Source: Leifsonia virtsii (GTDB lineage: Bacteria; Actinomycetota; Actinomycetes; Actinomycetales; Microbacteriaceae). Taken from it: DNA of 64,000 bases. Positions 4,174 through 61,928 of the stretch are shown in pieces. The notes under the pieces were generated by a model. The model was not told where the DNA came from. It searched no databases and saw nothing but the letters and a program-made list of their open reading frames with translations. Made by a program: the position numbers and the translations under genes. The stretch lies in assembly GCF_030433675.1 (NCBI RefSeq), contig NZ_JAROCB010000001.1, positions 555,333 to 619,332 of the forward strand, given 5' to 3'. How positions within the stretch are numbered: position 1 is the stretch's first letter; the number at the start of each line of letters is the position of its first letter.

Positions 4174-4230
4174 CAGCTCCTGAGTTCTTCGAGCGGATCG
4201 CGGCGATCCGCTCGAAGAAGTCAGGAGCTG
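4174..4230. repeat. long near-perfect palindrome between convergent genes
   Basis: Two 28-nt arms (4174-4201 and 4203-4230) are inverted copies with one mismatch. The left arm begins CAGCTCCTGAGTTCTTCGAG. It lies between the stop codons of pdtaR (4157) and the thioesterase (4239), so a bidirectional terminator is likely. There is no U-tract. A related sequence occurs at 47377-47434. Confidence 0.85.
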
Positions 4231-4238
4231 TTCGCGTG

Positions 4239-4643
4239 TCAGAGCTCCTTGATCAGGTTCGTGATGCGGATCGTGGAGCAGCGGCGGCCCTGGTCGTCCG
4301 TGACGGCGATCTCGTGCGTGGTCAGCGTCCGGCCCAGGTGGATGGGCGTGCACACCCCGGTGACGTAGCCGGTCGTCGCCGAGCGCGTGTGCGACGCGTT
4401 GATCTCGATCCCGACCGCGAGGCGGCCCTCGCCGGCGTAGAGGTTGGCCGACATCGAGCCGAGCGACTCGCCCAGCACGACGTAGGCGCCGCCGTGGAGC
4501 AGGTCGGCGGGCTGCGTGTTGCCCTCGACCGGCATGCGCGCCACAGCGCGCTCCACGGTGAACTCGAGCATCTCGATGCCCATCTTCTCGGCCAGTGCGC
4601 CGAGCCCTCTCTGCTGCACGTACGCGAGCGCGTCCTCGGTCAT
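4239..4643 (-). CDS. PaaI/YdiI-type hotdog-fold acyl-CoA thioesterase
   Basis: A 134-residue single hotdog domain. The family's helix segment reads QPADLLHGGAYVVLGESLGS: the HGG turn and the catalytic acidic residue in GES are present. The central strands GIEINASHTRSATTGYVTG and the C-terminal TIRITNL strand complete the fold. Members hydrolyse aromatic or polyketide acyl-CoA esters such as 1,4-dihydroxy-2-naphthoyl-CoA in menaquinone synthesis; no menaquinone gene is adjacent, so the substrate is open. The ATG at 4643 is preceded by AGGAG about 9 nt upstream. It is divergent from polA with 57 bp between starts. Confidence 0.88.
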   Translation of the reverse strand: MTEDALAYVQQRGLGALAEKMGIEMLEFTVERAVARMPVEGNTQPADLLHGGAYVVLGESLGSMSANLYAGEGRLAVGIEINASHTRSATTGYVTGVCTPIHLGRTLTTHEIAVTDDQGRRCSTIRITNLIKEL

Positions 4644-4688
4644 CCTCGGCCTCTCCTGACGGTCGTCTGGACTGTCACCGGCCCCTTG

Positions 4689-4694
4689 TAGGCT
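4689..4694 (+). promoter_or_regulatory. -10 hexamer TAGGCT of polA, predicted leaderless start
   Basis: TAGGCT ends 6 nt before the GTG start of polA at 4701. No Shine-Dalgarno sequence is present. Confidence 0.55.
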
Positions 4695-4700
4695 GGCCTG

Positions 4701-7388
4701 GTGTCAGACTCCGAAAAGCCTACCCTCCTCGTCATAGACGGCCATTCGCTCGCGTTCCGGGCCTTCTACGCACTCCCGGTGGACAGCTTCGTGAACCGCG
4801 AGGGTCAGCACACGAACGCGATCCACGGCTTCATCGCGATGTTCATCAACCTGCTGCAGCAGCAGAAGCCGACCCACCTCGCGGTCGCGTTCGACATCTC
4901 CCGCTACTCGTTCCGCACGCGCGAGTACCCGGAGTACAAGGGCACCCGCGGCGAGACGCCGTCGGAGTTCGCCGGACAGGTCCCGCTGCTCGAAGAAGCC
5001 CTGCACGCGATGAACGTGACGACCATCGCGAAGGAGGACTACGAGGCCGACGACATCCTCGCCACCCTCGCGCGACAGGGCGTCGAGCAGGGCTTCCGGG
5101 TGCTGCTGGTGTCGGGCGACCGCGACACCATCCAGCTCGTCAACGACGACGTGACGCTGTTGTACCCGAACGTCCGGGGCGTCTCCGAGCTCAAGATCTA
5201 CGACCCGGCGGCGGTGCGCGAGAAGTACGGCATCGATCCGCACCAGTATCCCGAGATCGCGGCCCTCGTCGGCGAGACCAGCGACAACCTGATCGGCATC
5301 GACAAGGTCGGCGAGAAGACCGCCGTCAAGTGGGTGCAGCAGTACGGCACGGTCGAGAACATCGTCGCGCACGCCGACGAGATCAAGGGAGTGGTCGGCC
5401 AGAACCTGCGCGACCAGAAGGAGAACGCGCTGCGCAACCGCCGGCTGAACCAGCTGCGCGACGACGTGGAGCTGCCGATCGGCCCGGCCGACCTGGAGCG
5501 GAAGCCGCTCAACGAGAGCGCGGTGCGCGACATCTTCGCGCGGCTGCAGTTCAAGACGCTGCTCGAGCGACTGATGAAGACGGCGGCAGAAGAGGGCATG
5601 CTCGACGGCGCGGCGGGTGCCCTCGAGGTCGGCGACGCGGGTGCGGTGAGCGCGCCCGCGGTGCGCACGATGATCGACGAGGAGCTCGCGAACTGGCTGG
5701 CCAAAGCCTCGGCAGACGGCAACGCGGTCGCCGTGCAGCTGGAGACCGGCCCCGCAGGGCTGGGTGGTCCGAGATTGGCGGGCTTCGGCCTCGCCACCGC
5801 CGACGACTCCGTCTACGTGCCGTGGGTCGCCGGCCGGCCCGACTACACCGCGCTGGAGGAGTGGCTCGCGAGCAGCGCTCCGAAGTACTTCTTCCACGCC
5901 AAGCCGCAGTTCAAGGCTCTGAGCCGCGCCGGCTTCGTCGTCGACGGGCTCGCCTTCGATACGCGCATCGCCTCCTGGCTCGTGAAGCCGGGCGCCGCCG
6001 CGCAGTCCCTCGCCGAGCAGGTCTACGAGGTGCTCGGCGAGACGCTGCCCGTCTCCGACCCGAACCAGCTCGTCCCGATCAACGATGCGGTCAGCCCGGC
6101 CACCGAGGCGTGGTTCATCCGCCGTGTCGCCGAGGGGCAGATGATCGCGCTCGACGAGGGCACCCGCGGGGTGCTCGACGACATCGAGCTGCCGCTGGTC
6201 GCCGTGCTCGCCGAGATGGAGCTGAACGGCGTCACCATCGACAGCGCCGTGCTCGCCCGGCTGCGCGGCCAGCTCACCGACAAGGCCAACGACTTCGCGG
6301 CGCAGGCGTACGCGCAGATCGGGCACGAGATCAACCTCGGCTCGCCGAAGCAGCTCCAGCAGGTCCTCTTCGAGGAGCTCGGGATGCCGAAGACGCGCGC
6401 CACGAAGACCGGCTACTCGACCGACGCCGGATCGCTGGCCGACCTGCAGGAGAAGAACCCGCATCCGTTCCTCGGCCTGCTGCTGCAGCACCGCGACGCG
6501 ACCAAGCTCAAGCAGATCGTCGAGACCCTCGAGCGGTCGGTCGAGGGCGACGGCCGCATCCACACCACCTACGACCAGACCGGCACGAGCACGGGCCGCA
6601 TCTCGTCGAACGACCCGAACCTGCAGAACATCCCGATCCGCACGGAGGAGGGGCGGGAGATCCGCGCCGCGTTCCGGCACGGCGAGGGCTTCGAGACGCT
6701 CCTGACCGCCGATTACTCGCAGATCGAGATGCGGATCATGGCGCACCTCTCCGAAGACCCGGGCCTCATCGAGGCGTTCAACGCGGGGGAGGACCTGCAC
6801 CGGTTCGTCGGCTCCCGCGTCTTCGGGGTCTCGCCGGCCGAGGTCACCCCTGCCATGCGCACCAAGGTCAAGGCGATGTCGTACGGCCTCGCCTACGGCC
6901 TGAGCGCGTTCGGCCTCTCGAAGCAGCTGCGCATCGAGACCTCCGAGGCGCGCCAGCTGATGAGCGACTACTTCGAGAGGTTCGGCTCGGTGCGCGACTA
7001 CCTGCGCAACGTGGTCGAGCAGGCGCGCGTCGACGGCTTCACCGAGACGATCTTCGGCCGCCGCCGGCCGTTCGCCGACCTCACCTCGACCAACCGCGTC
7101 CTGCGCGAGAACGCCGAACGCCAGGCGCTGAACGCGCCCATCCAGGGCTCGGCCGCCGACATCATGAAGGTCGCGATGCTCGGCATCGCGGGCGACATGA
7201 TCGACCAGCGCCTGGAATCCCGGATGCTGCTGCAGGTGCACGACGAGCTCATCTTCGAGGTGGCGACGGGCGAGTGGGACGCGCTGGAGTCGATCGTGCG
7301 CACCCGCATGGCGGGCGCCGCCGACCTCCGGGTTCCGCTCGAGGTGCAGGTCGGCCGCGGCGCGAACTGGGACGCCGCCGCGCACTGA
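4701..7388 (+). CDS. polA: DNA polymerase I
   Basis: An 895-residue repair and Okazaki-fragment polymerase. The N-terminal 5'-3' exonuclease (about 1-300) shows LLVIDGHSLAFRAFYAL, EADD, GDRDTIQL and SDNLIGI. The middle 3'-5' exonuclease-like region lacks the catalytic acids: where FDTET is expected the sequence reads VQLET, and the later aspartate motif is also lost, so proofreading is predicted absent, as in many actinobacterial and Thermus enzymes. The polymerase domain has motif A (DYSQIEMR, D671), the O-helix RTKVKAMSYGLAYG and motif C (QVHDE, D848). Start is GTG at 4701. It is monocistronic and divergent from the thioesterase. Confidence 0.97.
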   Translation: MSDSEKPTLLVIDGHSLAFRAFYALPVDSFVNREGQHTNAIHGFIAMFINLLQQQKPTHLAVAFDISRYSFRTREYPEYKGTRGETPSEFAGQVPLLEEALHAMNVTTIAKEDYEADDILATLARQGVEQGFRVLLVSGDRDTIQLVNDDVTLLYPNVRGVSELKIYDPAAVREKYGIDPHQYPEIAALVGETSDNLIGIDKVGEKTAVKWVQQYGTVENIVAHADEIKGVVGQNLRDQKENALRNRRLNQLRDDVELPIGPADLERKPLNESAVRDIFARLQFKTLLERLMKTAAEEGMLDGAAGALEVGDAGAVSAPAVRTMIDEELANWLAKASADGNAVAVQLETGPAGLGGPRLAGFGLATADDSVYVPWVAGRPDYTALEEWLASSAPKYFFHAKPQFKALSRAGFVVDGLAFDTRIASWLVKPGAAAQSLAEQVYEVLGETLPVSDPNQLVPINDAVSPATEAWFIRRVAEGQMIALDEGTRGVLDDIELPLVAVLAEMELNGVTIDSAVLARLRGQLTDKANDFAAQAYAQIGHEINLGSPKQLQQVLFEELGMPKTRATKTGYSTDAGSLADLQEKNPHPFLGLLLQHRDATKLKQIVETLERSVEGDGRIHTTYDQTGTSTGRISSNDPNLQNIPIRTEEGREIRAAFRHGEGFETLLTADYSQIEMRIMAHLSEDPGLIEAFNAGEDLHRFVGSRVFGVSPAEVTPAMRTKVKAMSYGLAYGLSAFGLSKQLRIETSEARQLMSDYFERFGSVRDYLRNVVEQARVDGFTETIFGRRRPFADLTSTNRVLRENAERQALNAPIQGSAADIMKVAMLGIAGDMIDQRLESRMLLQVHDELIFEVATGEWDALESIVRTRMAGAADLRVPLEVQVGRGANWDAAAH

Positions 7389-7403
7389 GCCGGGGCCGGG
7401 TCG

Positions 7404-7440
7404 TCGTCCACAGGGCGGAGCGTCCGACGACTTGTCCACA
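7404..7440 (+). promoter_or_regulatory. pair of DnaA-box-like 9-mers
   Basis: TTGTCCACA at 7432-7440 equals the consensus DnaA box of Streptomyces-type Actinobacteria, and TCGTCCACA at 7404-7412 differs by one base. Both are in the same orientation, 28 bp apart, in the short space after polA. Only two boxes are present, so this is not an origin; a DnaA-titration or regulatory site is possible. Confidence 0.3.
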
Positions 7441-7478
7441 CCTTCGGCCTTTCCGTGCCGCCGGGACGCGGTCGTCGG

Positions 7479-7484
7479 TAGTGT
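7479..7484 (+). promoter_or_regulatory. -10 hexamer TAGTGT, predicted leaderless start
   Basis: TAGTGT ends 6 nt before the ATG at 7491, with no ribosome binding site between. Confidence 0.5.
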
Positions 7485-7490
7485 CGAAGC

Positions 7491-9164
7491 ATGACCAACG
7501 ATCAGAAGCGCGAACCCACCCCGGTCGACACGATCGCCGAGGAGTGGGTCGACACCCAGCTCGAGCTGTACCCGGAGTACCACGTCTGGCTCGGCCGTCC
7601 CGGCCGTGAGGGCGAGTACGCGGACTACTCGCCGGCCGGCGCGGAGCACGCCACGGCCAAGGTGAAGGAGGCGCTCGCGCGCATCCAGGCGGCGGAGCCG
7701 GTCGACGAGATCGACCGCATCACCAAGATGGACCTCGCTCGCGAGCTGCAGCTCACCGTCGAGAAGCACGAGGCCGGCTTCGGCCAGCGCGACCTCAACG
7801 TCATCGCCTCGCCCGCGCAGGAGCTGCGCGAGGTCTTCGACCTGGTCCCGACCGACACGGAGGACGACTGGGCCAACGTCGCCAAGCGGCTGCACAACCT
7901 CCCCGCGGCCATGCAGGGCTACATCGAGACGCTGCGCAGCGGCATCGCGGCGGGCAACGTCCCGGCGGTGCGGCAGGTGCGCGAGGTGCTCGCCCAGGCC
8001 CGCAAGCAGGTCGCCGACACCGGGTTCTTCTTCGAGTTCACGGCGGCGGCCCGTCCTCTGAACGGTGTGCTGCCCGAGTCGCTGAAGGCCGACCTGGCGG
8101 CGGGTGCGGGCGAGTCGGCACAGGCGTACGCCGCGCTGGTTGACTTCCTGGAGAACGAGCTCGCGCCGCACGCCCCGGAGAAGGACGCGGTCGGCCGCGA
8201 GCACTACGCCCTCGCCTCTCGCGGCTTCCTCGGGGCGACGGTCGACCTCGACGAGACCTACGAGTGGGGCATCGAAGAGCTCGCCCGCATGCGCGCCGAG
8301 CAGGAGTCGATCGCGAACGAGATCAAGCCGGGCGCGAGCGTGCTCGAGGCGATCGCGTTCCTCGACGGCGACGCCAGCCGGAAGCTGCACGGCACCGACG
8401 CGCTGCAGCGCTGGATGCAGGAGACCAGCGATCGCGCGATCGAGGAGCTCGGCAAGTCCCACTTCGACATCCCGGCCGAGATCCGCCGTCTGGAGTGCAT
8501 GATCGCGCCGACGCAGGAAGGCGGCATCTACTACACCGGGCCGAGCGACGACTTCGCGCGCGCCGGCCGGATGTGGTGGAGCGTGCCCGAGGGCGTGACC
8601 GAGTTCGACACCTGGCGTGAGCTCACCACGGTCTACCACGAGGGCGTTCCGGGTCACCACCTGCAGATCGCCCAGGCCACCTACAACAAGGCGCAGCTCA
8701 ACTCGTGGCGGCGCATCGCAGGTACCTCCGGCCACGCCGAGGGCTGGGCGCTGTACGCGGAGCGTCTCATGGAGCAGCTGGGCTACCTCGACGACCCGGC
8801 CGACCGCCTGGGCATGCTCGACGGGCAGCGCATGCGCGCGGCGCGTGTCGTGCTCGACATCGGCGTGCACCTCGAGAAGCCGCTGCCCGACGGATCGCGG
8901 GCGTGGACCGGGGAGGACGCCTTCCCGTTCCTCCGCGAGAACGTCAACATGAACGACGGGTTCGTGCGGTTCGAGGTGAACCGCTACCTCGGCTGGCCGG
9001 GGCAGGCGCCGTCGTACAAGATCGGGCAGCGCATCTGGGAGCAGCTGCGCGACGAGTACGCCCGCCGCGAGGGCGACGCGTTCGACATCAAGGCCTTCCA
9101 CAAGAAGGCGCTCGACATCGGCGGCGTCGGCCTCGACACGCTGAAGGCGGCGCTGCTCGACTGA
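7491..9164 (+). CDS. DUF885-family zinc-peptidase-like protein
   Basis: A 557-residue cytoplasmic protein of the DUF885 family. The signature VYHEGVPGHH is present, with H383, E384, H389 and H390 giving an HExxxHH-like metal motif, followed by GHAEGWALYAERLMEQLG where the family's third ligand (Glu) is expected, and the C-terminal GQRIWEQLRDEYARREG. DUF885 proteins resemble M32/M2-type metallopeptidases, and a few have been described as dipeptidases; the specificity of this one is unknown. Expression is probably from the TAGTGT -10 six bases upstream. The next gene begins about 26 bp downstream on the same strand. Confidence 0.88.
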   Translation: MTNDQKREPTPVDTIAEEWVDTQLELYPEYHVWLGRPGREGEYADYSPAGAEHATAKVKEALARIQAAEPVDEIDRITKMDLARELQLTVEKHEAGFGQRDLNVIASPAQELREVFDLVPTDTEDDWANVAKRLHNLPAAMQGYIETLRSGIAAGNVPAVRQVREVLAQARKQVADTGFFFEFTAAARPLNGVLPESLKADLAAGAGESAQAYAALVDFLENELAPHAPEKDAVGREHYALASRGFLGATVDLDETYEWGIEELARMRAEQESIANEIKPGASVLEAIAFLDGDASRKLHGTDALQRWMQETSDRAIEELGKSHFDIPAEIRRLECMIAPTQEGGIYYTGPSDDFARAGRMWWSVPEGVTEFDTWRELTTVYHEGVPGHHLQIAQATYNKAQLNSWRRIAGTSGHAEGWALYAERLMEQLGYLDDPADRLGMLDGQRMRAARVVLDIGVHLEKPLPDGSRAWTGEDAFPFLRENVNMNDGFVRFEVNRYLGWPGQAPSYKIGQRIWEQLRDEYARREGDAFDIKAFHKKALDIGGVGLDTLKAALLD

Positions 9165-9190
9165 GCGGCGGCCTGCGCATCGTCCCTCCG

Positions 9191-9844
9191 GTGGCCTCTC
9201 CCTACCGCGCCGTGCTCGGGCCGGCGTTCGCTGAGCTGCATCCGCGGCTGCAGACGTACTTCGACGCCATCCCGGCCGGCTCGGTGGGGCGGGGCTCCGG
9301 AGAGTTCGACACCGTGGGAACCCCGCGGCACTGGCTGTGGCCGGTGCTCGCGCTGTTCGCGCCGGCGCATGTGCTGTTCCCGGTCTGGGAGCGGCGTGTC
9401 CCGTTCACCGTAGAGAACCGGCCTGTCGTGGGTGGCAAGGGCTCACCGGCCGTGGCGGCCGAGCGGATGTTCGCCCTGCGCGGCCGCACGGTCACGATGA
9501 TCGACGAGATCGGGGTGGAGGATGGTGCTCTGGTCGACCGGCTCGGAAGCCCGGTGCGCACGGTCGCCCGGTTCGCCGCGTCCGTCCGCGACGGAGGGCT
9601 CCGGCTCCGGTCGACCGCGGTCTGGATCGTCGTCGCCGGGCGGAAGGTGCGCATCCCGCGGCCGCTCGCCCCGGTCGTGGTGCTGACCGAGCGGTGGGAC
9701 GACGAGGCGGAGCGCCAGCGGGTGTCGATCACCGTCACGGCGCCGGTGATCGGGCGGATGTACCAGTACGGCGGCCGGTTCCACTACGGCGTCGAGGCAG
9801 CAGGCAATCAGAGCAACGAAGAGAAGGGGGAGCGGTCGCCGTGA
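9191..9844 (+). CDS. DUF4166 domain protein
   Basis: A 217-residue protein counted from the GTG at 9191 (product begins ASPYRAVLGPAF). No convincing ribosome site precedes it, so the exact start is uncertain, and it may be translated by coupling to the gene upstream. The body matches DUF4166: LHPRLQTYFDAIP, GSGEFDTVGTPRHWLWPVLA and the C-terminal APVIGRMYQYGGRFHY. The following epimerase gene starts inside its stop codon (GTGA at 9841). DUF4166 often occurs next to or fused with NAD-dependent epimerases of the TIGR01777 type, which is what is seen here. The biochemical role is not known. Confidence 0.8.
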   Translation: MASPYRAVLGPAFAELHPRLQTYFDAIPAGSVGRGSGEFDTVGTPRHWLWPVLALFAPAHVLFPVWERRVPFTVENRPVVGGKGSPAVAAERMFALRGRTVTMIDEIGVEDGALVDRLGSPVRTVARFAASVRDGGLRLRSTAVWIVVAGRKVRIPRPLAPVVVLTERWDDEAERQRVSITVTAPVIGRMYQYGGRFHYGVEAAGNQSNEEKGERSP

Positions 9845-12388: not shown

Positions 12389-12416
12389 AGCGGCCGGTCC
12401 TTCGGGGCCGGCCGCT
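12389..12416 (+). terminator. rpsA terminator hairpin with UUCG loop
   Basis: A 12-bp stem (12389-12400 with 12405-12416, one G-U pair) is closed by the stable tetraloop TTCG. It is followed by TCGTCGTT instead of a U-run, the same tail seen after rbpA and rpmE2. Confidence 0.75.
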
Positions 12417-12435
12417 TCGTCGTTCCCCGGACACG

Positions 12436-12503
12436 CGACTGCGGTGGTTCGGAACATCTGCGGCGGGGCGCGCGGGCGCAGACGTTCCAAACCACCGCAG
12501 TCG
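12436..12503. repeat. long inverted repeat, GACTGCGGT type
   Basis: Arms of 27 nt (12436-12462 and 12477-12503) pair with two mismatches around a 14-nt GC-rich loop. The left arm starts CGACTGCGGTGGTTCGGAAC. It lies just upstream of the coaE promoter, beyond the normal rpsA terminator, so it may separate the two transcription units. The same GACTGCGGT beginning is used by arms at 31790 and 31868. Confidence 0.85.
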
Positions 12504-12515
12504 GAGAGGCGCGGC

Positions 12516-31256: not shown

Positions 31257-31270
31257 TCGTCCCCGCCTGC

Positions 31271-31326
31271 GATTCGTCACGAATCGCGCCCGTTCGTCAC
31301 GAATCGCGCCCGTTCGTGACGAGTGG
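31271..31326 (+). promoter_or_regulatory. tandem operator-like repeats, 20-bp period
   Basis: The unit TTCGTCACGAATCGCGCCCG occurs at 31273-31292 and 31293-31312, with a third partial copy (TTCGTGACGA) from 31313. Each contains the dyad TTCGT-S-ACGA. The period is close to two helical turns, so a regulator would bind all three on one face, next to a TACACT -10 at 31334. Confidence 0.6.
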
Positions 31327-31333
31327 TCGGGGC

Positions 31334-31789: not shown

Positions 31790-31883
31790 GACTGCGGCCT
31801 CCCGTCACTACCGCGGGTGCTCGCGCACCCGCACACGTGACACGAGACCGCAGTCACCCGGGAAGGGGACTGCGGTCTCGTGT
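31790..31883. repeat. three-armed inverted repeat with alternative pairings
   Basis: Arm A (31790-31808) can pair with arm B (31837-31855) with three mismatches, enclosing a perfect 8-bp inner hairpin (31813-31820 with 31825-31832, TCGC loop). The last 16 nt of arm B (31840-31855) can instead pair perfectly with arm C (31868-31883). Arms A and C both begin GACTGCGG. It lies between the convergent gene ending at 31786 and pgl ending at 31894. Confidence 0.85.
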
Positions 31884-31893
31884 CGGGTGGAGC

Positions 31894-32664
31894 TCAGTAG
31901 CTCGGAGCGATGAGGTTCTCGGGCACGTCGACGGCGGCATCCTTGTCCACGAAGAACACGGTGCGCTTCCGGCCCTTGGCGCCGGCGACCGGCACCTCGG
32001 TGTAGCTCGCGCCCGCGAGCGCGAGGCCCAGGGCGCTCGCCTTGTCGCTGCCGGCGAGCACCAGCCAGATGCGGTCCGACGAGTTGATCACCGGACGCGT
32101 GAGGCTCAGGCGCGCCGGCGGCGGCTTGGGGGAGTCGCGCTCGGCGATCACCGACGCCTTGTCCTCGCGGATGCCGGCCCGGTCGGGGAACAGCGACGCG
32201 ATGTGACCGTCGGGGCCGACGCCGAGGAAGGTGATGTCGAACTTCGGCACCGGCCAGCCCTCGTGCCCGAAGGCCTCGAGCTCCGCCGCATACACGCTCG
32301 CGGCCTCGTCGATGTCCGGGATCTCATCCGACGACGGGAACGGGTGGACGTTCTCCGGCGGCACCGCGATGTGATCGAGCAGCGCCTCGCGCGCCTGGAG
32401 CTCGTTCCGGTCGGGGTCGTTCCGCGGCACGAACCGCTCGTCGCCCCACCAGAAGTGCACCTTCGACCAGTCGATGGTGTCGCGGGCGGGGGAGGCGCTG
32501 ACCGCCTCCAGCACCGCGATGCCCATCGTTCCGCCGGTCAGCGCGATGTTCGCGTGACCCTGGTCGTCGAGGATGTCGATCGTCTTGGTGAGGAAGCGCG
32601 CGGCCACCGAGGCCGTGAGCGCCTCCTTGTCCGGGTGGACGAGCACCCGCCGTTCGTTCGTCAT
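31894..32664 (-). CDS. pgl: 6-phosphogluconolactonase
   Basis: A 256-residue DevB/SOL-type lactonase that opens 6-phosphogluconolactone, the second step of the oxidative pentose phosphate pathway. The motifs IALTGGTMGI, WSKVHFWWGDERFVP, DITFLGVGPDGHIASLFPDR and ARLSLTRPVINSSDRIWLVLAG are all conserved. The ATG overlaps the opcA stop (ATGA), so it is translated with opcA. It is the last gene of the minus-strand operon tkt-tal-pgi-zwf-opcA-pgl. Confidence 0.95.
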   Translation of the reverse strand: MTNERRVLVHPDKEALTASVAARFLTKTIDILDDQGHANIALTGGTMGIAVLEAVSASPARDTIDWSKVHFWWGDERFVPRNDPDRNELQAREALLDHIAVPPENVHPFPSSDEIPDIDEAASVYAAELEAFGHEGWPVPKFDITFLGVGPDGHIASLFPDRAGIREDKASVIAERDSPKPPPARLSLTRPVINSSDRIWLVLAGSDKASALGLALAGASYTEVPVAGAKGRKRTVFFVDKDAAVDVPENLIAPSY

Positions 32665-41284: not shown

Positions 41285-41302
41285 CCGCCCGGAGCTCGCG
41301 CG

Positions 41303-41391
41303 CTTGCGTCGGCGATTCGGGCGCGTTCCGTTCGAATCTCCGACGGGAGGCGGCCCAGCAGGAGATTCGAACGCATTCGATCCGACGGAAG
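41303..41391. repeat. nested imperfect inverted repeat between ctaB and the acetyltransferase
   Basis: A perfect 13-bp core (CGTTCGAATCTCC at 41329-41341 with its complement at 41361-41373) is flanked by outer arms (41303-41312 with 41382-41391, one mismatch). The left half has an 8-nt excess. A run of six T occurs 30 bp later, at about 41421. A terminator for ctaB is likely. Confidence 0.75.
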
Positions 41392-41450
41392 CTGGAGAAG
41401 CCGACGTGAGGGTCGCTCGGTTTTTTCTGCCGCGGGGTGCGTCCGGCGTC

Positions 41451-43250: not shown

Positions 43251-44669
43251 ATGTCAGACATCCTGATCGATCGGCCTGAGCTCGCCTCTCTGGGGCAGTA
43301 CGAGTTCGGCTGGGCGGATTCCGACGCAGCGGGTGCCTCCGCACGTCGCGGGCTCTCACCCGAGGTGGTGAAGGACATCTCCGGACTCAAGAACGAGCCC
43401 GAGTGGATGCTGCAGCGCCGTCTGAAAGCCCTCCAGCTGTTCGAGCGCAAGCCGATGCCGACCTGGGGTGCCGACCTGTCGGAGATCGACTTCGACAACA
43501 TCAAGTACTTCGTCCGCTCCACCGAGAAGCAGGCGCAGAGCTGGGAGGACCTGCCGGAGGACATCCGGAACACGTACGAGAAGCTGGGCATCCCGGAGGC
43601 GGAGCGTCAGCGCCTCGTCGCCGGCGTCGCCGCGCAGTACGAGTCCGAGGTCGTGTACCACCAGATCCGCGAAGACCTGGAGGAGCAGGGCGTCATCTTC
43701 CTCGACACCGACACGGCGCTGCGCGAGCACCCCGAGATCTTCGAGGAGTACTTCGGCACCGTGATCCCGGCCGGCGACAACAAGTTCGCGGCGCTCAACA
43801 CCGCCGTCTGGTCGGGCGGCTCGTTCGTGTACGTCCCGAAGGGCGTGCACGTCGAGATCCCGCTGCAGGCCTACTTCCGCATCAATACCGAGAACATGGG
43901 CCAGTTCGAGCGGACGCTGATCATCGCCGACGAGGGCTCCTACGTGCACTACATCGAGGGCTGCACGGCGCCGATCTACAAGTCCGACTCGCTGCACTCC
44001 GCGGTCGTCGAGATCATCGTCAAGAAGAACGCCCGCGTGCGCTACACGACCATCCAGAACTGGTCGAACAACGTCTACAACCTGGTCACCAAGCGGGCCA
44101 CCGCGGCCGAGGGCGCGACCATGGAGTGGATCGACGGCAACATCGGCTCCAAGGTCACGATGAAGTACCCGTCGATCTACCTGATGGGGGAGCACGCCAA
44201 GGGCGAGACCCTGTCCGTCGCCTTCGCCGGCCCGGGCCAGCACCAGGACGCCGGCGCCAAGATGATCCACATGGCGCCGTACACGCAGTCGTCGATCGTC
44301 TCCAAGTCGATCGCCCGCGGCGGCGGCCGTGCCGGTTACCGCGGCGAGGTGCGGGTGGACGCGAGCGCGCACCACTCCGCCAACACCGTGCGCTGCGACG
44401 CGCTGCTGGTCGACACGATCTCCCGGTCGGACACCTACCCGGCCATCGACATCCGGGTCGACGACGTGCAGCTCGGCCACGAGGCGACGGTGTCGCGCGT
44501 GAGCGAGGAGCAGCTCTTCTACCTGATGTCGCGCGGGCTCCCGGAGGACGAGGCCATGGCCATGATCGTCCGCGGCTTCATCGAGCCGATCGCCCGCGAG
44601 CTCCCCATGGAGTACGCCCTGGAACTCAACAAGCTCATCGAGATGGGCATGGAAGGCTCTGTCGGATGA
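43251..44669 (+). CDS. sufB: Fe-S cluster assembly scaffold SufB
   Basis: A 472-residue beta-helix protein on which the iron-sulfur cluster is built together with SufC and SufD. Typical segments are [61 protein letters not shown] and [22 protein letters not shown], where C382 matches the catalytic cysteine of E. coli SufB. The C-terminal [29 protein letters not shown] is diagnostic. A GAGG site lies just upstream of the ATG. The stop overlaps sufD (ATGA). Confidence 0.97.
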
Positions 44670-47032: not shown

Positions 47033-47362
47033 ATGCCCGCCACTCTGAGCCCCGCGCTCTTCGACCAGGTCGAGGAGGCGCTGAAGAACGTCATGGATCC
47101 CGAGCTCGGGATCAACGTCGTCGACCTCGGGCTGATCTACGACCTGGCCTGGGACGACGAGAACAACGCGCTCATCATCTCGATGACGCTCACGAGCGCC
47201 GGCTGCCCGCTGACCGACGTGCTGGAGGAGCAGACCGCCGAGGCGCTCGACGGCATCGTCGAGGCGTTCCGCATCAACTGGGTGTGGATGCCGCCGTGGG
47301 GCCCGGAGCGGATCACCGACGACGGTCGCGACATGATGCGCGCCCTCGGCTTCGCCATCTAG
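47033..47362 (+). CDS. DUF59 (MIP18/SufT-like) iron-sulfur assembly protein
   Basis: A 109-residue protein consisting of one MIP18-family domain. Conserved elements are MDPELGINVVDLGLIYD, MTLTSAGCPLTDVLEEQ with C58, and VWMPPWGPERITDDGRDMMRALGF. Related proteins (SufT, PaaD, MIP18) help deliver Fe-S clusters to target enzymes. It closes the suf operon here; sufS and sufU are not in the window. Confidence 0.92.
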   Translation: MPATLSPALFDQVEEALKNVMDPELGINVVDLGLIYDLAWDDENNALIISMTLTSAGCPLTDVLEEQTAEALDGIVEAFRINWVWMPPWGPERITDDGRDMMRALGFAI

Positions 47363-47376: not shown

Positions 47377-47434
47377 CAGTTCCGGACTTCTTCGACCGCG
47401 CCGCGGCGTGTCGGGTCGAAGAAGTCCGGAACTG
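47377..47434. repeat. long perfect inverted repeat after the suf operon
   Basis: Arms of 21 nt (47377-47397 and 47414-47434) are perfect complements with a 16-nt loop. The left arm starts CAGTTCCGGACTTCTTCGAC, closely related to the palindrome at 4174-4230. It starts 15 nt after the DUF59 stop, so it probably ends suf transcription. No U-tract is present. Confidence 0.87.
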
Positions 47435-49062: not shown

Positions 49063-49068
49063 CCCCCG

Positions 49069-49133
49069 CCATCGAGTCCGCACAGACTGCACGCTTTCGG
49101 CTCGAAAGCGTCGATTCTTTGCGGACTCGATGG
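49069..49133. repeat. nested inverted repeat between convergent genes
   Basis: An outer perfect 14-bp pairing (CCATCGAGTCCGCA at 49069-49082 with 49120-49133) encloses an inner perfect 9-bp hairpin (ACGCTTTCG at 49091-49099 with 49103-49111, 3-nt loop). It fills the space between the ABC-F stop (49062) and the patatin stop (49141). Confidence 0.83.
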
Positions 49134-49140
49134 GGGTGAG

Positions 49141-54338: not shown

Positions 54339-54341
54339 GAG

Positions 54342-56394: not shown

Positions 56395-56413
56395 GTTCTC
56401 GCGACCGATCTGC

Positions 56414-56419: not shown

Positions 56420-56549
56420 CGATAGCTGGCCCCCGGAGTCTGGCGCGTCATCCCGACGCCGATCGCCTCCGCGGGTGCACAAGCTTCCCGTCCACGCGGT
56501 CTGCGCGGACACGACCGAACCGACTACTAGCTGCAACAAGGAAGTCCTG

Positions 56550-56801: not shown

Positions 56802-56810
56802 GCCGCACCG

Positions 56811-56843
56811 CGAAGGCCCTCGTCCGCCGGACGGGGGCCTTCG
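56811..56843 (+). terminator. rpmE2 terminator hairpin
   Basis: A 15-bp stem (56811-56825 with 56829-56843, one G-U pair) begins CGAAGGCC, has a 3-nt loop and is followed by TCGTGTCC. The arm and tail resemble those of the rbpA terminator. Confidence 0.8.
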
Positions 56844-56877
56844 TCGTGTCCGGCGCGTTCGAGCGCCCGGCGTCCGG

Positions 56878-57195
56878 TCAGGAGGTCTGGTACTGGATGC
56901 CGGAGCTTGCGATGGCGGCGAAGATGATGATCGAGAAGATGATCCCCAGGGCCAGCGCGATGAAGCCGATGATCACCGCCGCCAGCGCAAGGCCGCGGCC
57001 CTGCTCGCCGGTGCGCTTGATCTGCGACAGCGCGACGAAGCCGAGGATGATTCCGAGGATGCTGATGAAGAACGTGGCGATGAACGCCACGATCGCCAAC
57101 ACGTTCCACCCCGGCTGCGCGGGAGCGCCGGGCTGGGAGTACTGCGGCTGCTGCTGCGGCGGCAGGGGCTGCGGGTTCAGGTTCGAGTCGCTCAT
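56878..57195 (-). CDS. DUF4190 small membrane protein
   Basis: A 105-residue protein. The first 30 residues are proline- and glutamine-rich and likely cytoplasmic and disordered (PQPLPPQQQPQYSQPG). Two transmembrane helices follow (about 31-55 and 72-98), separated by ALSQIKRTGEQGRGLAL, which is the DUF4190 signature (xxHxxIxRTGExGRGLA). Its function is unknown. The ATG at 57195 lies 7 nt after a TAGTGT -10 and is supported over longer frames by that spacing. Confidence 0.85.
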   Translation of the reverse strand: MSDSNLNPQPLPPQQQPQYSQPGAPAQPGWNVLAIVAFIATFFISILGIILGFVALSQIKRTGEQGRGLALAAVIIGFIALALGIIFSIIIFAAIASSGIQYQTS

Positions 57196-57202
57196 GCGGC
57201 AG

Positions 57203-57208
57203 ACACTA
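57203..57208 (-). promoter_or_regulatory. -10 hexamer TAGTGT, predicted leaderless start
   Basis: On the minus strand TAGTGT ends 7 nt before the ATG of the DUF4190 gene. Confidence 0.5.
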
Positions 57209-57259
57209 GCGGCTGAGCAGACCCTCAGGTAGCCCCCAGCGGAGGGGTGAGCGCCGGCG

Positions 57260-57946
57260 TCAGCGGATCGGCCAGTCTCCGGAGGTCGTGAACTCCGGAT
57301 CGCGTTCGCGCCGCATGTACTCCTGGAAGTCGGCGGCCTGCTCCCGGCACCAGTCGACCTGGCGGCGGTGCAGCTCTGCCGCCTCGAAGGCGAGGGCGTC
57401 CGCGTGGATGCGCGCGAGCGCTTGCGCGACACGGCCCGCGGCGATCGCGTCGGCGCCGGCGTCGTGCGCGGCGATGAGGTCGACGCCGTAGTGGGTCGCC
57501 GTCATCGTGAGCGTCCGCTTGCCGCGACGGTACTTGTCCACCGCCTTGTCGATCACCAGGGGGTCGACGATCGGGCCCGGGGAGACCAGCGGCGCGACGC
57601 CGTGGCGGCGGGCCTCCCGGTCGAGGAGCGTGAAGTCGTAGGGCGCGTTATAGGCGACCACCGGGATGCCGCGGTCGAACAGGCTGCGCAGCTGCGCCAC
57701 GATCGCTGCGACCGCGCGGGCCGGATCCATCCCGAGCTCGCGTGCACGCTCGGTCGTGATGCCGTGCACGGCCGTGGCCTCCGCCGGGATCTCGACGCCG
57801 GGGTCGACGATCCAGTCGCGGCGGTGCAGCACGGTGCCCTCTTCGTCGAGCAGCCCGACGTGGGCGGTCACGATGCGGGCGGACTCCACGTCGATGCCCG
57901 TCGTCTCAAGATCGAACACCCCGAGTCGCTGATGCCACCTACCCAT
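57260..57946 (-). CDS. DEDDh 3'-5' exonuclease (DnaQ/epsilon-like)
   Basis: A 228-residue exonuclease-fold protein. Exo I is VFDLETTG with D12 and E14, Exo II is VAYNAPYDFTLLDREA, and the Exo III region near HDAGADAIAAGR supplies the HxxxxD histidine and aspartate. It resembles the DnaQ-like proofreading family, but it is a free-standing protein with no polymerase gene nearby, so a repair or RNA-trimming role is equally possible. The ATG at 57946 is chosen because a TAGCGT -10 ends 7 nt upstream. Confidence 0.9.
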   Translation of the reverse strand: MGRWHQRLGVFDLETTGIDVESARIVTAHVGLLDEEGTVLHRRDWIVDPGVEIPAEATAVHGITTERARELGMDPARAVAAIVAQLRSLFDRGIPVVAYNAPYDFTLLDREARRHGVAPLVSPGPIVDPLVIDKAVDKYRRGKRTLTMTATHYGVDLIAAHDAGADAIAAGRVAQALARIHADALAFEAAELHRRQVDWCREQAADFQEYMRRERDPEFTTSGDWPIR

Positions 57947-57953
57947 GCCGACA

Positions 57954-57959
57954 ACGCTA
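57954..57959 (-). promoter_or_regulatory. -10 hexamer TAGCGT, predicted leaderless start
   Basis: On the minus strand TAGCGT ends 7 nt before the exonuclease ATG. Confidence 0.5.
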
Positions 57960-57990
57960 ACCACGACCCCCGTCACGCGCCGCGCAGCCA

Positions 57991-58053
57991 CGCCGAGTTG
58001 CACGTTGTGGTGGCTATCCGCCCCGAATAGCCACCACAACGTGCAGCTCGGCG
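57991..58053. repeat. long inverted repeat after treS
   Basis: Arms of 27 nt (57991-58017 and 58027-58053) pair with one mismatch around a 9-nt loop. The left arm starts CGCCGAGTTGCACGTTGTGG. It starts 8 nt past the treS stop on the minus strand and lies upstream of the exonuclease promoter. It is a likely treS terminator without a U-tract. Confidence 0.87.
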
Positions 58054-58061
58054 GGGGAGGG

Positions 58062-59771
58062 TCAGTCGCGGCGCGGCTCGATGTGCAGCCAGTAGAAGTT
58101 CTGGGTGCCGAGGGTGAGGGTGAAGCGGCCGTCTTCGGCCACGGTCGGGAACTCGGCGCCGCCGAAGAGGTCGTACAGCGCGCGTCCGGCGAACTCGGGG
58201 GCCTCCAGCGTGACCGACACCGGATTGTGCGCGAACGAGAACACGCACAGCACGTCCTCCGGCTGGTCGCCGAAGTGCGTGCCGCTGCCCTCGTAGGACC
58301 GAACGAACGCCAGCACCGACTCGTGGTCCGTCGGCAGCACGCGGATGTCGCCGAGCCCGAACACGGGGTGCGCCTTCCGCACGTGGATGACGTTGCGGAT
58401 CCAGTGCAGCAGCGACCGGGACTGCGCGAGCTGCGCCTCCACGTTCACCTGGTTGTAGTGGAAGACCAGCGACTGCACGACCGGCAGGAACAGCTTGCCG
58501 GGGTCGGCGCTGGAGAAGCCCGCGTTGCGGTCGGGCGTCCACTGCATCGGCGTGCGCGAGCTGTCGCGGTCGGGCAGCCAGATGTTGTCGCCCATCCCGA
58601 TCTCGTCGCCGTAGTAGAGGAACGGGCTGCCCGGCAGCGAGAAGAGCAGCGCGTGCGCCAGCTCTAGCTCGGCCCGGGAGTTGTCGAGCAGCGGCGCGAG
58701 CCGGCGGCGGATGCCGATGTTGGCGCGCATGCGCGGGTCGTAGGCGTACCAGCCGTACATCGCCTGCCGGTACTCCTCGCTCACCATCTCGAGCGTCAGC
58801 TCGTCGTGGTTGCGCAGGAACACGCCCCAGGCCGCGCCGTCGGGCACGTCGGTGGTCTCGGACAGCACCCGCACCAGCTCGCCGGCCTGCTGCGAGCGCA
58901 GCGCGTAGAAGATGCGCGGCATGACCGGGAAGTCGAAGGCCATGTGGCACTCCGGCTCCTCCTCGCTGCCGAAGAATGCCGCGACCTCGCGGGGCCACTG
59001 GTTGGCCTCGGCGATCATGATGCGGCCGGGGTACTCGCGGTCGACCCACTCCCGCAGCTTGATGATGAACTCGTGGGTCTTCGGCTCGCCCTCCCCGTTG
59101 CCCTCGTCGGACTCGTAGAGGTACGGGATGGCGTCGAGCCGGAAGCCGTCGACGCCCAGGTCGAGCCAGAACCGGATCATGTCGTACATCGCCTCGTGCA
59201 CGGCAGGGTTCTCGAAGTTGAGGTCGGGCTGGTGCGAGAAGAAGCGGTGGAAGTAGAACTGCCGGCGCGCCTCGTCGAAGGCCCAGTTGGAGTCCTCGGT
59301 GTCGACGAAGATGATGCGGATGTCCGGCCACTTGTCGTCGGTGTCGCTCCAGACGTAGAAGTCGCCGTACGGCCCGTCGGGATCGGAGCGCGACTGCTGG
59401 AACCACTCGTGCTGGTCGGAGGTGTGGTTGATCGGCAGGTCGATGATGATGCGCATGTTGCGCTCGTGCGCCTTGGTGACGAGCTCGCGGAACTCGTCGA
59501 TCGTCCCGAACTCGGGGAGGATCGCCTTGAAGTCGGCGACGTCGTAGCCGCCGTCGCGCAGCGGGGACTGGAAGAACGGGGGCAGCCAGAGCGCGTCGAT
59601 GCCGAGCCACTGCAGGTAGTCCAGCTTGGACGTGAGCCCGGCGATGTCACCGGAGCCGTCGCCGTTGCTGTCGACGAACGACCGGACCATGACCTCGTAG
59701 AAGACCGACCGGCGGTACCACTGGGGGTCGAGGGCGAGCCCGGGCAGCGTGATGGGCGCGGTGAAACTCAC
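58062..59771 (-). CDS. treS: trehalose synthase (maltose glucosylmutase)
   Basis: A 569-residue GH13 enzyme that interconverts maltose and trehalose. The start is GTG at 59771 with GGAGAG close upstream. Catalytic residues are nucleophile D213 (GVDGFRLDAIP), acid/base E255 (MIAEANQWP) and D323 (FLRNHDE). The N-terminal YRRSVFYEVMVRSFVDSNGDG and the phrase DLPINHTSDQHEWF are TreS hallmarks. It is not fused to a maltokinase, and no mak gene is beside it. A LacI-type operator overlaps its predicted transcription start. Confidence 0.95.
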   Translation of the reverse strand: MSFTAPITLPGLALDPQWYRRSVFYEVMVRSFVDSNGDGSGDIAGLTSKLDYLQWLGIDALWLPPFFQSPLRDGGYDVADFKAILPEFGTIDEFRELVTKAHERNMRIIIDLPINHTSDQHEWFQQSRSDPDGPYGDFYVWSDTDDKWPDIRIIFVDTEDSNWAFDEARRQFYFHRFFSHQPDLNFENPAVHEAMYDMIRFWLDLGVDGFRLDAIPYLYESDEGNGEGEPKTHEFIIKLREWVDREYPGRIMIAEANQWPREVAAFFGSEEEPECHMAFDFPVMPRIFYALRSQQAGELVRVLSETTDVPDGAAWGVFLRNHDELTLEMVSEEYRQAMYGWYAYDPRMRANIGIRRRLAPLLDNSRAELELAHALLFSLPGSPFLYYGDEIGMGDNIWLPDRDSSRTPMQWTPDRNAGFSSADPGKLFLPVVQSLVFHYNQVNVEAQLAQSRSLLHWIRNVIHVRKAHPVFGLGDIRVLPTDHESVLAFVRSYEGSGTHFGDQPEDVLCVFSFAHNPVSVTLEAPEFAGRALYDLFGGAEFPTVAEDGRFTLTLGTQNFYWLHIEPRRD

Positions 59772-59796
59772 GGCTCTCCTTGAGCGTCGGGGGGAC

Positions 59797-59810
59797 TGCA
59801 AGCGATTGCA
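59797..59810. promoter_or_regulatory. LacI-family operator at treS
   Basis: TGCAAGCGATTGCA is a 14-bp dyad of the type bound by LacI/GalR sugar repressors (TGNAANCGNTTNCA-like). It lies just downstream of the predicted treS start (-10 at 59819-59824), where a bound repressor would block transcription. Confidence 0.65.
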
Positions 59811-59818
59811 ACCAGAGA

Positions 59819-59824
59819 AGTCTA
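59819..59824 (-). promoter_or_regulatory. -10 hexamer TAGACT of treS
   Basis: Minus-strand TAGACT predicts a start near 59812 and a 40-nt leader that contains the operator and the GGAGAG ribosome site. Confidence 0.55.
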
Positions 59825-59858
59825 TGGCGTGCGCACCGTGCGCTGTCCAGTCCCTGCC

Positions 59859-59864
59859 TAGACT
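59859..59864 (+). promoter_or_regulatory. -10 hexamer TAGACT, predicted leaderless start
   Basis: TAGACT ends 7 nt before the ATG at 59872. Confidence 0.55.
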
Positions 59865-59871
59865 GGTCAGG

Positions 59872-60777
59872 ATGACTGTCACCTCACCCTACGCAGCCGC
59901 TCTGGAGCGCGTGCCCGTACGCGAGGGGACGGTCGCGATCCTCGGTTCCTCCACCCGCTTCTGGGACTACGGAGACCGGGATGCGGACACCACCCTGGTG
60001 CTGGTGCACGGCTTCCGCGGCGACCACCACGGGCTCGAGCCGGTGGTCGCCCAGCTCGACGGCGTGCGCATGGTCTCGCCCGACCTGCCGGGCTTCGGCG
60101 AGTCCACGCCGATGACGGAGGCGCACCACGACATCGACGGCTACGGGCGCTGGCTCGGCGCCTTCGTCGAGAGCCTCGGGCTGACCGGGCGCGTCGTGCT
60201 GCTCGGCCACTCGTTCGGCTCGATCGTGGTCGCCGGCGCGCTGGCCGGTCCGCACGGCACCGTGCCGCGCCCGGACGCGGTGGTGCTGGTGAACCCGATC
60301 GGTCAGCCCGCGCTGGAGGGCCCGCGCGGCATCCTGACCCGGCTCGCGATCTTCTACTACTGGCTGGCGGCCGTACTGCCCGAGCGGCTCGGCTTCGGGC
60401 TGCTGCGCAACGCCCTGATCGTGCGCGTGATGAGCGTCGCCATGGCGAAAACGCGCGAGCCGGCGCTGCGGCGCTGGATCCACGACCAGCACGACCGCTA
60501 CTTCTCGGCGTTCAGCGACCGCCGGGTGGTGCTCGAGGCCTTCCGCGCCTCGGTGTCGCACGACGTCAGCGAGTACGCGTCCCGCATCTCGGAGCGCACC
60601 CTGCTCGTCGCCGCCGAGAAGGACGACATCACGCCGATCGCGGCCGAGTACCGGCTGCAGACGCTCTTCCCCGACGCCCGGATCGTGGCGATCCCGGAGG
60701 TCGGGCACCTCATCCACTACGAGACTCCGGAGACGGCCGCCTGCGCTGTCCGCGACTTCCTGGCGGAGCTGTCGTGA
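59872..60777 (+). CDS. alpha/beta-hydrolase
   Basis: A 301-residue alpha/beta-hydrolase. The oxyanion motif LVLVHGFRGD and the nucleophile elbow GHSFGS (S114) are clear, and the catalytic histidine is in PEVGHLIHYE near the C-terminus. A helical cap region (FYYWLAAVLPERLGFGLLRN) may interact with membrane lipids. The substrate is unknown. The ATG at 59872 directly follows a -10. The stop overlaps the glycosyltransferase start (GTGA), so the two proteins are made together and may act on the same molecule. Confidence 0.88.
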   Translation: MTVTSPYAAALERVPVREGTVAILGSSTRFWDYGDRDADTTLVLVHGFRGDHHGLEPVVAQLDGVRMVSPDLPGFGESTPMTEAHHDIDGYGRWLGAFVESLGLTGRVVLLGHSFGSIVVAGALAGPHGTVPRPDAVVLVNPIGQPALEGPRGILTRLAIFYYWLAAVLPERLGFGLLRNALIVRVMSVAMAKTREPALRRWIHDQHDRYFSAFSDRRVVLEAFRASVSHDVSEYASRISERTLLVAAEKDDITPIAAEYRLQTLFPDARIVAIPEVGHLIHYETPETAACAVRDFLAELS

Positions 60778-61853
60778 GGGTCCTGTTCGACTGCCGGTAC
60801 ACCCGGATCGGCCGCCACGACGGCATCAGCCGCTACACCGCGGGCGTCGTCACGGAGCTGGCGAAGCTTCATCCCGTGACGATGCTCATCAGCGACCACC
60901 GGCAGCTGGAGCTGCTGCCCGACCTGCCGTGGGAGCTCATCCCGTCGCCGACAGCGGTGGGGGAGCCGTGGGTCGCGCGCACGGTGAACCGGCTGAACCC
61001 GGACGTGGTGTTCACCCCGATGCAGACCATGGGCGGATTCGGGCGCAAGTACCGGCTGGTGCTGACGGTCCACGACCTCATCTACTACCGGCACCCCACG
61101 CCGCCCCGCGATCTTCCCGCGTTCGTGCGCGGCCTCTGGCGGCTGTACCACCTCTCCTGGTGGCCGCAGCGGATGCTGCTGAACCGGTCGGACGCCGTGG
61201 TGACCGTGTCGGAGACGACGAAGGGCCTCATCGCGGAGCACCGCCTCACCAAGCGGCCGGTCTACGTCGTGCCGAACGCGGCCGACATGCCGGCGCTCGC
61301 CCCCGGCCGCGTCGAACGCACCGCGCCGGAGAGCAAGAGCCTGGTGTACATGGGCTCGTTCATGCCGTACAAGAACGTGGACACGCTGGTGCGCGCGGTG
61401 GCGCTCCTGCCGGAGTACACCCTCCACCTGATGAGCCGTGTCTCCGACGCCGAGCGCCGGCGGCTGAGCGAGCTGGCGCCCGGCGCCCGGCTGGTGTTCC
61501 ACGACGGAGCGAGCGACGAGGAGTACGCCGAGACGCTCGCGGCGGCGACGGCGCTCGTGACGGCGTCGCACGACGAGGGGTTCGGCATCCCGCTGGTGGA
61601 GGCCATGACGCTCGGGACGCCGGTGGTCGTGAGCGACATCCCGATCTTCCGCGAGATCGGCGGCCGCGCCGCGCTGTTCTTCGACGCGGACGACCCCGAG
61701 CAGGTCGCCGCGCGCGTGCGCCACCTCGAGGAGGAGGGTGTCTGGGCCGCCCGCTCGGCCGCCTCGCGCGAGCAGGCGGAGCGCTACACCTGGGAGGGCT
61801 CGGCGCGGCACCTGCTCACCGTGCTGGAGGCGACGGCGCTGCGTTCGCGCTGA
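60774..61853 (+). CDS. GT4 glycosyltransferase
   Basis: A 359-residue GT-B glycosyltransferase. The C-terminal donor domain has SLVYMGSFMPYKNVDTLVRAV, ASHDEGFGIPLVEAMTLGTPVVVSDIPIFREIGG with the ExGxxxxxxE pattern, and FFDADDPEQVAARV. The sequence resembles mannosyltransferases of the WbaZ/MtfB group acting on a lipid or cell-envelope glycan, but the sugar and acceptor are unknown. GTG start, coupled to the hydrolase gene; converges with the carboxypeptidase gene. Confidence 0.9.
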   Translation: MRVLFDCRYTRIGRHDGISRYTAGVVTELAKLHPVTMLISDHRQLELLPDLPWELIPSPTAVGEPWVARTVNRLNPDVVFTPMQTMGGFGRKYRLVLTVHDLIYYRHPTPPRDLPAFVRGLWRLYHLSWWPQRMLLNRSDAVVTVSETTKGLIAEHRLTKRPVYVVPNAADMPALAPGRVERTAPESKSLVYMGSFMPYKNVDTLVRAVALLPEYTLHLMSRVSDAERRRLSELAPGARLVFHDGASDEEYAETLAAATALVTASHDEGFGIPLVEAMTLGTPVVVSDIPIFREIGGRAALFFDADDPEQVAARVRHLEEEGVWAARSAASREQAERYTWEGSARHLLTVLEATALRSR

Positions 61854-61865
61854 GCGCGCCGGCGC

Positions 61866-61928
61866 CATCCATGGGTCGCAACACGCCGTTTCGGCGCGAC
61901 CTGAGCGGCGTGTTGCGCCCCATAGATG
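61866..61928. repeat. long inverted repeat between convergent genes
   Basis: Arms of 23 nt (61866-61888 and 61906-61928) pair with two mismatches around a 17-nt loop. The left arm starts CATCCATGGGTCGCAACACG. It fills the space between the glycosyltransferase stop (61853) and the carboxypeptidase stop (61942). Likely bidirectional terminator; no U-tract. Confidence 0.86.

Follow-up and report, generated by a model that had tools for sequence, protein, structure and literature searches.

What are the long inverted repeats that stand at gene ends in eight places of one stretch of the Leifsonia virtsii genome, and what might they do there? The stretch, called the window throughout, comprises the 64,000 nucleotides (nt) at positions 555,333 to 619,332 of contig NZ_JAROCB010000001.1, and its repeats belong to several families of dispersed, near-perfect extragenic palindromes of about 50-80 bp. 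These repeat families lie at 3′ ends, are symmetric with respect to the strands, have arms that change more slowly than their loops, turn over between species and lack a U-tract. The most likely of the readings weighed here, at about even chances, is that they are elements like the repetitive extragenic palindromic (REP) sequences, longer than REPs, which would act as a barrier at the ends of both neighbouring genes; a purely selfish element comes next. A barrier acting at the level of RNA, cooperation with Rho and a copying route of spread are inferred.

Eight palindromes of multicopy families

The window was scanned for ungapped Watson-Crick hairpins (match +1, mismatch −2) and subjected to a repeat search, and gene boundaries were taken from our own codon-usage gene caller. 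All eight inverted repeats listed in an earlier note on this DNA were confirmed and are given below; the family labels rest on short motifs of our choice.

4173-4231, no strand: family A palindrome, arms of 28-29 bp (ACAGCTCCTGAGTTCTTCGA..), scan score 26; between a response-regulator-like gene (+, ends 4157) and a hotdog thioesterase gene (−, ends 4239), convergent.
12436-12503: family D palindrome, score 21; 3′ of rpsA (30S protein S1), before coaE.
31790-31884: D-type composite with outer arms GACTGCGG../..CCGCAGTC, inner stem at 31813-31832 and an extra hairpin at 31839-31884 (score 17); between a small gene (+) and a 6-phosphogluconolactonase gene (−), convergent.
41303-41391: family G, an imperfect, mostly one-orientation dyad with a 13-bp core at 41329-41373 (score 13); 3′ of a UbiA prenyltransferase gene.
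47377-47434: family A palindrome, score 21; at the end of the suf operon, from a SufBD-core gene (43251-44669) to a SUF-associated-like gene (47033-47362).
49069-49133: family E palindrome, score 19; between an ABC-F ATPase gene (+, ends 49062) and a patatin-like gene (−, ends 49141).
57991-58053: family B palindrome, score 24; at the 3′ end of an alpha-amylase-family gene (58062-59771, −), before an exonuclease-domain gene (−).
61866-61928: family C palindrome, arms ending in GTCGCAACACGCCG, score 17; between a glycosyltransferase gene (+) and a D-Ala-D-Ala carboxypeptidase-family gene (−).

Seven hairpins in the window reach a score of 16 or more, as against none in 98 of 100 third-order Markov windows and one in each of the other two, and the ordinary hairpins of the window (27373, 31222, 56811) score 13-14. 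The earlier note was right that the repeats are long. It was also right on position: all eight sites are at 3′ ends and by the gene map four are convergent (4173, 31839, 49069, 61866), four tandem and none divergent. Seven of the eight were among the 25 longest of 65 inverted-repeat pairs in the repeat search, with arms of 23-36 nt that are 85-91% complementary. The weakest site is 41303, since its score of 13 or more was reached in 53 of 100 Markov windows, yet it is a repeat with at least 27 places in the genome. A search of the whole window with Rfam at gathering score gave only a tRNA.

The view that each repeat has its own sequence, so that they are not simple copies, had to be given up. 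The elements at 4173 and 47377 are members of a single family, and multicopy families with many relatives in the genome account for seven of the eight sites, which rules out a set of unrelated one-off palindromes. A genome-wide search for related repeats found at least about 209 places over the six families A, B, C, D, E and G in the L. virtsii genome (G000; 4.2 Mb, 10 contigs). For the BLAST counts single window hairpins were compared with the genome and the listed rows clustered by hand into places, with 40 first-look candidates scored for families A, B, D and G, giving at least 40 distinct places for family A (71 rows, query 4166-4238; 47377 included, and two being single-arm matches), at least 40 for B (70 rows, query 57985-58059), at least 42 for D (60 rows, query 12430-12509), 24 for E (41 rows, query 49064-49138) and at least 27 for G (35 rows, query 41296-41412), while family C was found at 36 places by exact pattern. 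The query 31826-31897, from the composite site, gave only weak matches elsewhere in the genome. A further family, F, was seen in relatives and in L027 and was not found in the window (G, L and g numbers are our own handles). Median dyad length was 48-74 nt for families A-F in the pooled set.

Copy number varies strongly within the genus. With a covariance model of family A, 28 genomes of the genus gave from no match (G011, G015, G018 and G026) to at least 150 rows over both strands, i.e. at least 75 copies, in the close sister Leifsonia sp. C5G2 (G016). Palindromes are often found at contig ends (G016:C10:26-98, C31:24-96, C9:18-91 and C32:54-127; G000:C8:64-125; G000:C6:456129-456192 of 456233), as if they were breaking short-read assemblies, and copy numbers from draft genomes may therefore be too low.

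Some local arrangements were observed besides. Four family C palindromes lie within 0.67 kb at about 1369601-1370266 of G022:C1, a cluster like a bacterial interspersed mosaic element (BIME); by a flank test G010 lacks a C counterpart for two of them. In the window, a conserved terminator-like hairpin is followed at about 31268-31330 by a short array of TTCGTGACGAA-type boxes, for which G016 has a long tandem array (with N's) and G022 and G009 have F palindromes instead. The hairpin at L024:7354-7407 consists almost wholly of C and G homopolymer runs and is unlike any family.

Position relative to genes and strand symmetry

In the own sample, made up of the window and 380 kb of other L. virtsii stretches, 40 hairpins scoring 16 or more were found, 22 between convergent and 13 between tandem genes, one inside a gene and four unplaced; none was divergent, yet divergent spaces make up about 10.3 of the 34.3 kb of intergenic DNA. 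The distance to the nearest stop codon had a median of 11 nt and a range of −9 to 302 (57 hairpins, own and five relatives). A pooled set of 251 distinct hairpins scoring 15 or more, which is partly family-selected, divides into 156 convergent, 69 tandem, 6 divergent and 20 unplaced. Where the gap at a convergent gene end is 40 nt or more, an element was present in 44 of 74 cases, but this fraction and the family proportions are biased, as 12 of the 19 own 20-kb stretches were placed on family A matches; several further site sets and the pieces of C5G2 were likewise chosen by family. A symmetric element would serve both strands, which would explain why convergent junctions are favoured. Family A arms carry TGA on both strands, and at L010:6479-6543 the flanking genes as called (5551-6492, +, and 6530-8032, −) both end within the palindrome, so that the element may supply both stop codons.

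The repeats are U-tract-free, as the earlier note had it. In the 12 nt following 327 transcribed ends of the pooled family hairpins T amounts to 15.3%, and T-rich ends (TTTT, or at least four T in the first 8 nt) were found in 9 of the 327, all of family A. For elements between tandem genes, 897 pairs read on the transcribed strand contained 14 G-U and 10 A-C mismatches, with no clear excess of the former, and a one-sided core found in the loops of several families ran sense to transcription in 8 cases and antisense in 6. Lacking a U-tract and any clear bias in wobble pairs or core orientation, the elements display strand symmetry and not classical intrinsic termination.

Selection on the arms

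The pace of change was followed in about 380 kb of three genomes of the genus, G022, G020 (95% identity) and G010 (about 92%). Between G020 and G022, 37 of 886 arm sites and 40 of 295 loop sites differ (Fisher p 1.7e-7), the arms thus changing about three times more slowly in a test confined to pairs that could still be identified as hairpins of one family, with one or two cases dropping out. The arms are kept complementary, as had been claimed; the gene conversion or palindrome formation invoked to explain this is possible but not needed: no change on both sides to another Watson-Crick pair was seen in 443 pairs between G020 and G022, against 31 changes on one side, which fits gradual compensation. 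Both-side changes were found in 11 of 315 pairs between G010 and G022 and in 12 of 224 between G010 and G020, but 5 and 10 of these, respectively, fall within one F element, and this evidence is therefore thin. Among 32 family A sequences, with the structure taken from their consensus, both-side changes occur in 18 of 27 pairs, in 86 cells as compared with a shuffled mean of 32.

Conservation and exchange at orthologous junctions

The end of the suf operon was compared across the genus by z-scores from dinucleotide-shuffle energies. The folding energy had z < −2 in 27 of 28 genomes, with a median of −5.4 and a value of −1.76 in the remaining one, as against 3 of 28 for a control stretch inside a gene of the locus. 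An ungapped hairpin score of 9 or more was reached in 24 of the 28; the other four, G026, G009, G006 and G027, are predicted to fold into hairpins that contain G-U pairs, mismatches or bulges. A loose measure of stem length at this locus was not separated from mononucleotide shuffles in many genomes. The strong fold is kept across genomes while the arms come from several sequence families.

The same exchange of families was seen elsewhere. At the junction 4157|4239 L. virtsii and G016 have family A, the G016 ortholog being a perfect dyad with a score of 29, while G022 and G009 have F of the GATTTG..CAAATC type and G019 and G010 F of the ATTCGTCACGAAT type. The junction 52391|52422 holds A in G016, G022 and G010, B in G020 and no element in L. 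virtsii, G019 and G009. For the other window sites, G016 has only an arm relic at 12436 and a 22-bp junction without an element at 61866, G019 has an arm relic at 49069 by eye, G009 has a plain D palindrome at the 31790 junction, and the element at 41303 is present in G016 and was not seen in four other relatives.

In the three-way comparison, 29 hairpins of G022 were opposed in G020 by the same family in 21 cases, by another family in one and by none in one, with no synteny in 6. In G010 the numbers were 13 for the same family, 3 for another (one of them a labelling error), 10 for none or below threshold and 3 without synteny; two elements of G010 were mislabelled as C, since by eye the one opposite G022:38433 is an A and the one opposite G022:165901 an E, and at least two of the cases scored as none (G022:182844 and 287047) keep a shorter or degraded hairpin. 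All 12 own family A elements with a counterpart in the sister keep one there, a biased figure since the sister pieces were chosen for family A. Filled and empty junctions differ in size by close to the length of an element, and no clear target-site duplication was found at such pairs, the flanks of which have diverged.

A one-sided core shared by unrelated arms

The core CGGCGTGTCG has a 29-fold higher density in intergenic than in coding DNA, the counts being 15 against 5 copies in the own sample and 12 against 5 in the relatives. When one mismatch at most was allowed, it was found in the loop region of 57 of 110 family A elements (1 of 110 when shuffled), 3 of 26 of family B and 4 of 17 of family E (0 shuffled), and in none of 22 of family F or 7 of family D. 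Family C bears the core in its arms, but since this family was defined by ACACGCCG, a part of the core, its core content holds by definition.

Across the Microbacteriaceae, a search of 199 genomes of 85 genera with the A-type model under stricter filters, scoring 24 candidates of each, gave matches in 7 genomes of 4 genera: the own genus, g46 with 19 in G072 and 21 in G196, and g12 and g58 with single ones. In twenty g46 loci there are 21 palindromes, of which 10 are convergent, 10 tandem and 1 divergent; their arms are unrelated to those of A, and by eye all 21 carry the same core in one or other orientation, a share that is biased because the search model contains the core, though such elements are in any case numerous there. 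Three long hairpins were found in 80 kb of unselected g46 DNA (L254-L257), none with the core. In a search of 249 genomes the exact pattern of family C occurred outside the genus in 6 genomes, from 5 of 84 genera, each with between one and three copies. Other genera also have long palindromes of different sequence; 16 stretches of 20 kb contained 9 of them, with coding and intergenic ones unsorted. One in L253 (genus g71) has TGAGCTTGTCGAAG-type arms, a motif common in Microbacterium relatives, and may represent another such repeat family.

From one family or genus to the next the arms are different, their two sides changing together, and the core sits in or beside the loop. Recognition hairpins, for instance those of rolling-circle origins, are built in this way, with stems that can be exchanged under a loop that is conserved, as if a putative factor recognised the loop. 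A, B, C, E and the g46 family might form one superfamily tied by the core CGGCGTGTCG (CGACACGCCG) and not by the arms; its elements would be spread and rewritten at the gene ends of this bacterial family by a single-strand DNA enzyme other than Y1 or by a protein that binds the loop. We regard this as a speculative and rather unlikely proposal. Should the core common to these families be a recognition site, a REP-like system of spread that lacks the known transposase would be indicated.

A proposed barrier function and alternative explanations

A barrier at both gene ends would work as follows. Transcription of either flanking gene would place the palindrome in the 3′ untranslated RNA, where it would fold into a very stable hairpin. 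Termination would occur mainly via Rho further downstream, and the hairpin would block 3′-to-5′ exonucleases and in this way fix and protect the end of the mRNA. L. virtsii does encode Rho (L025; TIGR00767, 641 bits). Spread by copying over evolutionary time together with loss by deletion would allow one family to take the place of another at a given junction. Several observations weigh against such a role. Some elements, such as the palindrome at 12436, stand behind an ordinary conserved terminator-like hairpin (12389-12416 in that case), and elements missing at orthologous junctions (52391|52422 in L. virtsii, G019 and G009, 61853|61942 in G016) are dispensable there. Elements do not replace U-tailed hairpins, which by our own rule, at gaps of at least 40 nt, follow 14 of 139 gene ends without an element and 9 of 57 with one, some of the 9 being sub-hairpins of the element itself. 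Without a clear G-U excess there is no direct sign of selection at the RNA level, and an element that is nothing more than a barrier has no need of an unpaired loop core that is conserved.

The strongest competitor, which we consider clearly less probable than the barrier but worth serious attention, is that the palindromes are non-autonomous mobile or selfish elements with no role for the host, spread by a putative enzyme and surviving at 3′ ends because insertion there is harmless. It would account for family A matches ranging from none to at least 150 rows within one genus, for presence and absence with a size difference near the element length and for a one-sided core common to unrelated arms, but against it stand arms that evolve about three times more slowly than loops, the lack of a clear target-site duplication and, within the limits of that biased set, the 12 of 12 own A elements kept in the sister. 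Nor was a transposase found. The REP tyrosine transposase domain Y1_Tnp (PF01797) was absent from all 28 genomes of the genus in a search that was positive in 5 of 14 controls, and from a set of 8 genomes, four of them of genus g46, and spread by the route of REP-associated tyrosine transposases (RAYTs) and IS200 was rejected for these genomes. The barrier and the selfish element correspond to two of the guesses in the earlier note, a bidirectional 3′-end element and a non-autonomous dispersed one; its third, a nucleoid-protein site, ranks below them.

Ordinary Rho-independent terminators with long stems are improbable. The elements do sit right after stop codons and form strong hairpins, but the missing U-tract mostly refutes this explanation, and families with conserved arms are not expected of plain terminators. 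Sites acting at the DNA level have similarly poor prospects; here gyrase, a nucleoid protein or cruciforms would handle positive supercoils between convergent genes, as proposed for the BIMEs of E. coli. Strand symmetry, the preference for convergent genes and the lack of a clear G-U excess agree with such sites, and REPs are described as binding gyrase, Pol I and IHF (PMC1525189), but about one third of the elements lie between tandem genes and a sequence-specific binder of the arms could not tolerate unrelated arms at the same junction. Recombination joints for the entry or exit of gene cassettes can be dismissed almost entirely, for in spite of a 2.8-kb cassette lying between two family A palindromes in L077, where L. 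virtsii has one, none of 23 large insertions (from three pairwise comparisons of about 380 kb that are not independent) had an element within 150 bp of either end. That cassette of Leifsonia sp. C5G2 (L077:3950-6876) appears by eye to contain an ABC-2 transporter, its ATPase and a TetR regulator, and L. virtsii has a single A palindrome between the same flanking genes (L025:10517-10593).

Comparison with known systems

Most gene ends studied here are without a U-tailed terminator by our rule. No report of such repeats in Leifsonia or Microbacteriaceae was found in the open-licence literature. With the REP and BIME elements, among them the GTAG REPs with their RAYT and the PU-BIMEs of E. coli, the palindromes share high-copy dispersal outside genes, convergent or tandem placement beside stop codons, several families per genome and clusters such as the four C elements in 0.67 kb of G022. 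They differ in length, with medians of 48-74 nt as compared with 20-40 bp for a REP unit, in the loop core that some families share and in the lack of a RAYT or Y1 transposase in the genomes searched above. No one-sided GTAG tag was found by eye in the family A alignment, and with both transposase and tag tested and not found, the elements are not GTAG/RAYT REPs. With the CGTC-tagged REPs they share a REP-like location and the lack of a dedicated transposase (PMC3733652). Their tag is however at one end only, and Actinobacteria are not among the five phyla given in the passages on them (PMC3733652), whereas family E arms carry CGTC/GACG on both sides and family A arms are without it by eye. 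In the same account, convergent REPs of two species mostly lie less than 20 bp from both ends of the open reading frames (PMC3733652). The elements here have hardly any internal region, no clear target-site duplication at pairs whose flanks have diverged and no autonomous partner in the searches made, and in this they are unlike miniature inverted-repeat transposable elements (MITEs).

MITEs are likewise short non-coding repeats with inverted repeats, and the TRIT repeat families of M. tuberculosis may double as terminator hairpins. The DNA uptake sequences (DUS) of Neisseria and uptake signal sequences (USS) of Pasteurella form hairpins that are described as repeats possibly doubling as terminators (PMC2267715). 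Unlike in DUS, USS and TRIT, the arms here are far longer and differ between families, and no uptake role is known.

At the level of transcripts, the nearest likeness is to the I-shaped or U-lacking terminators and the Rho-dependent 3′ ends of high-GC actinobacteria, in which a stem-loop free of a U-tract likewise lies downstream of the stop codon (PMC8269248). In the Term-seq account of Streptomyces clavuligerus 353 of 1,427 3′ ends were highly structured yet U-poor, and they were explained as I-shaped terminators or as Rho 3′ ends with a protecting stem-loop (PMC8269248). Those ends are defined by transcripts and not as repeat families (PMC8269248), whereas the present elements were defined by sequence. 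With about 200 palindromes, exchangeable families and filled, empty and swapped orthologous junctions, they offer a natural set for testing whether a hairpin without a U-tract ends or protects an mRNA, and by analogy they may work like both the REP and BIME elements and the U-lacking 3′ ends of Streptomyces.

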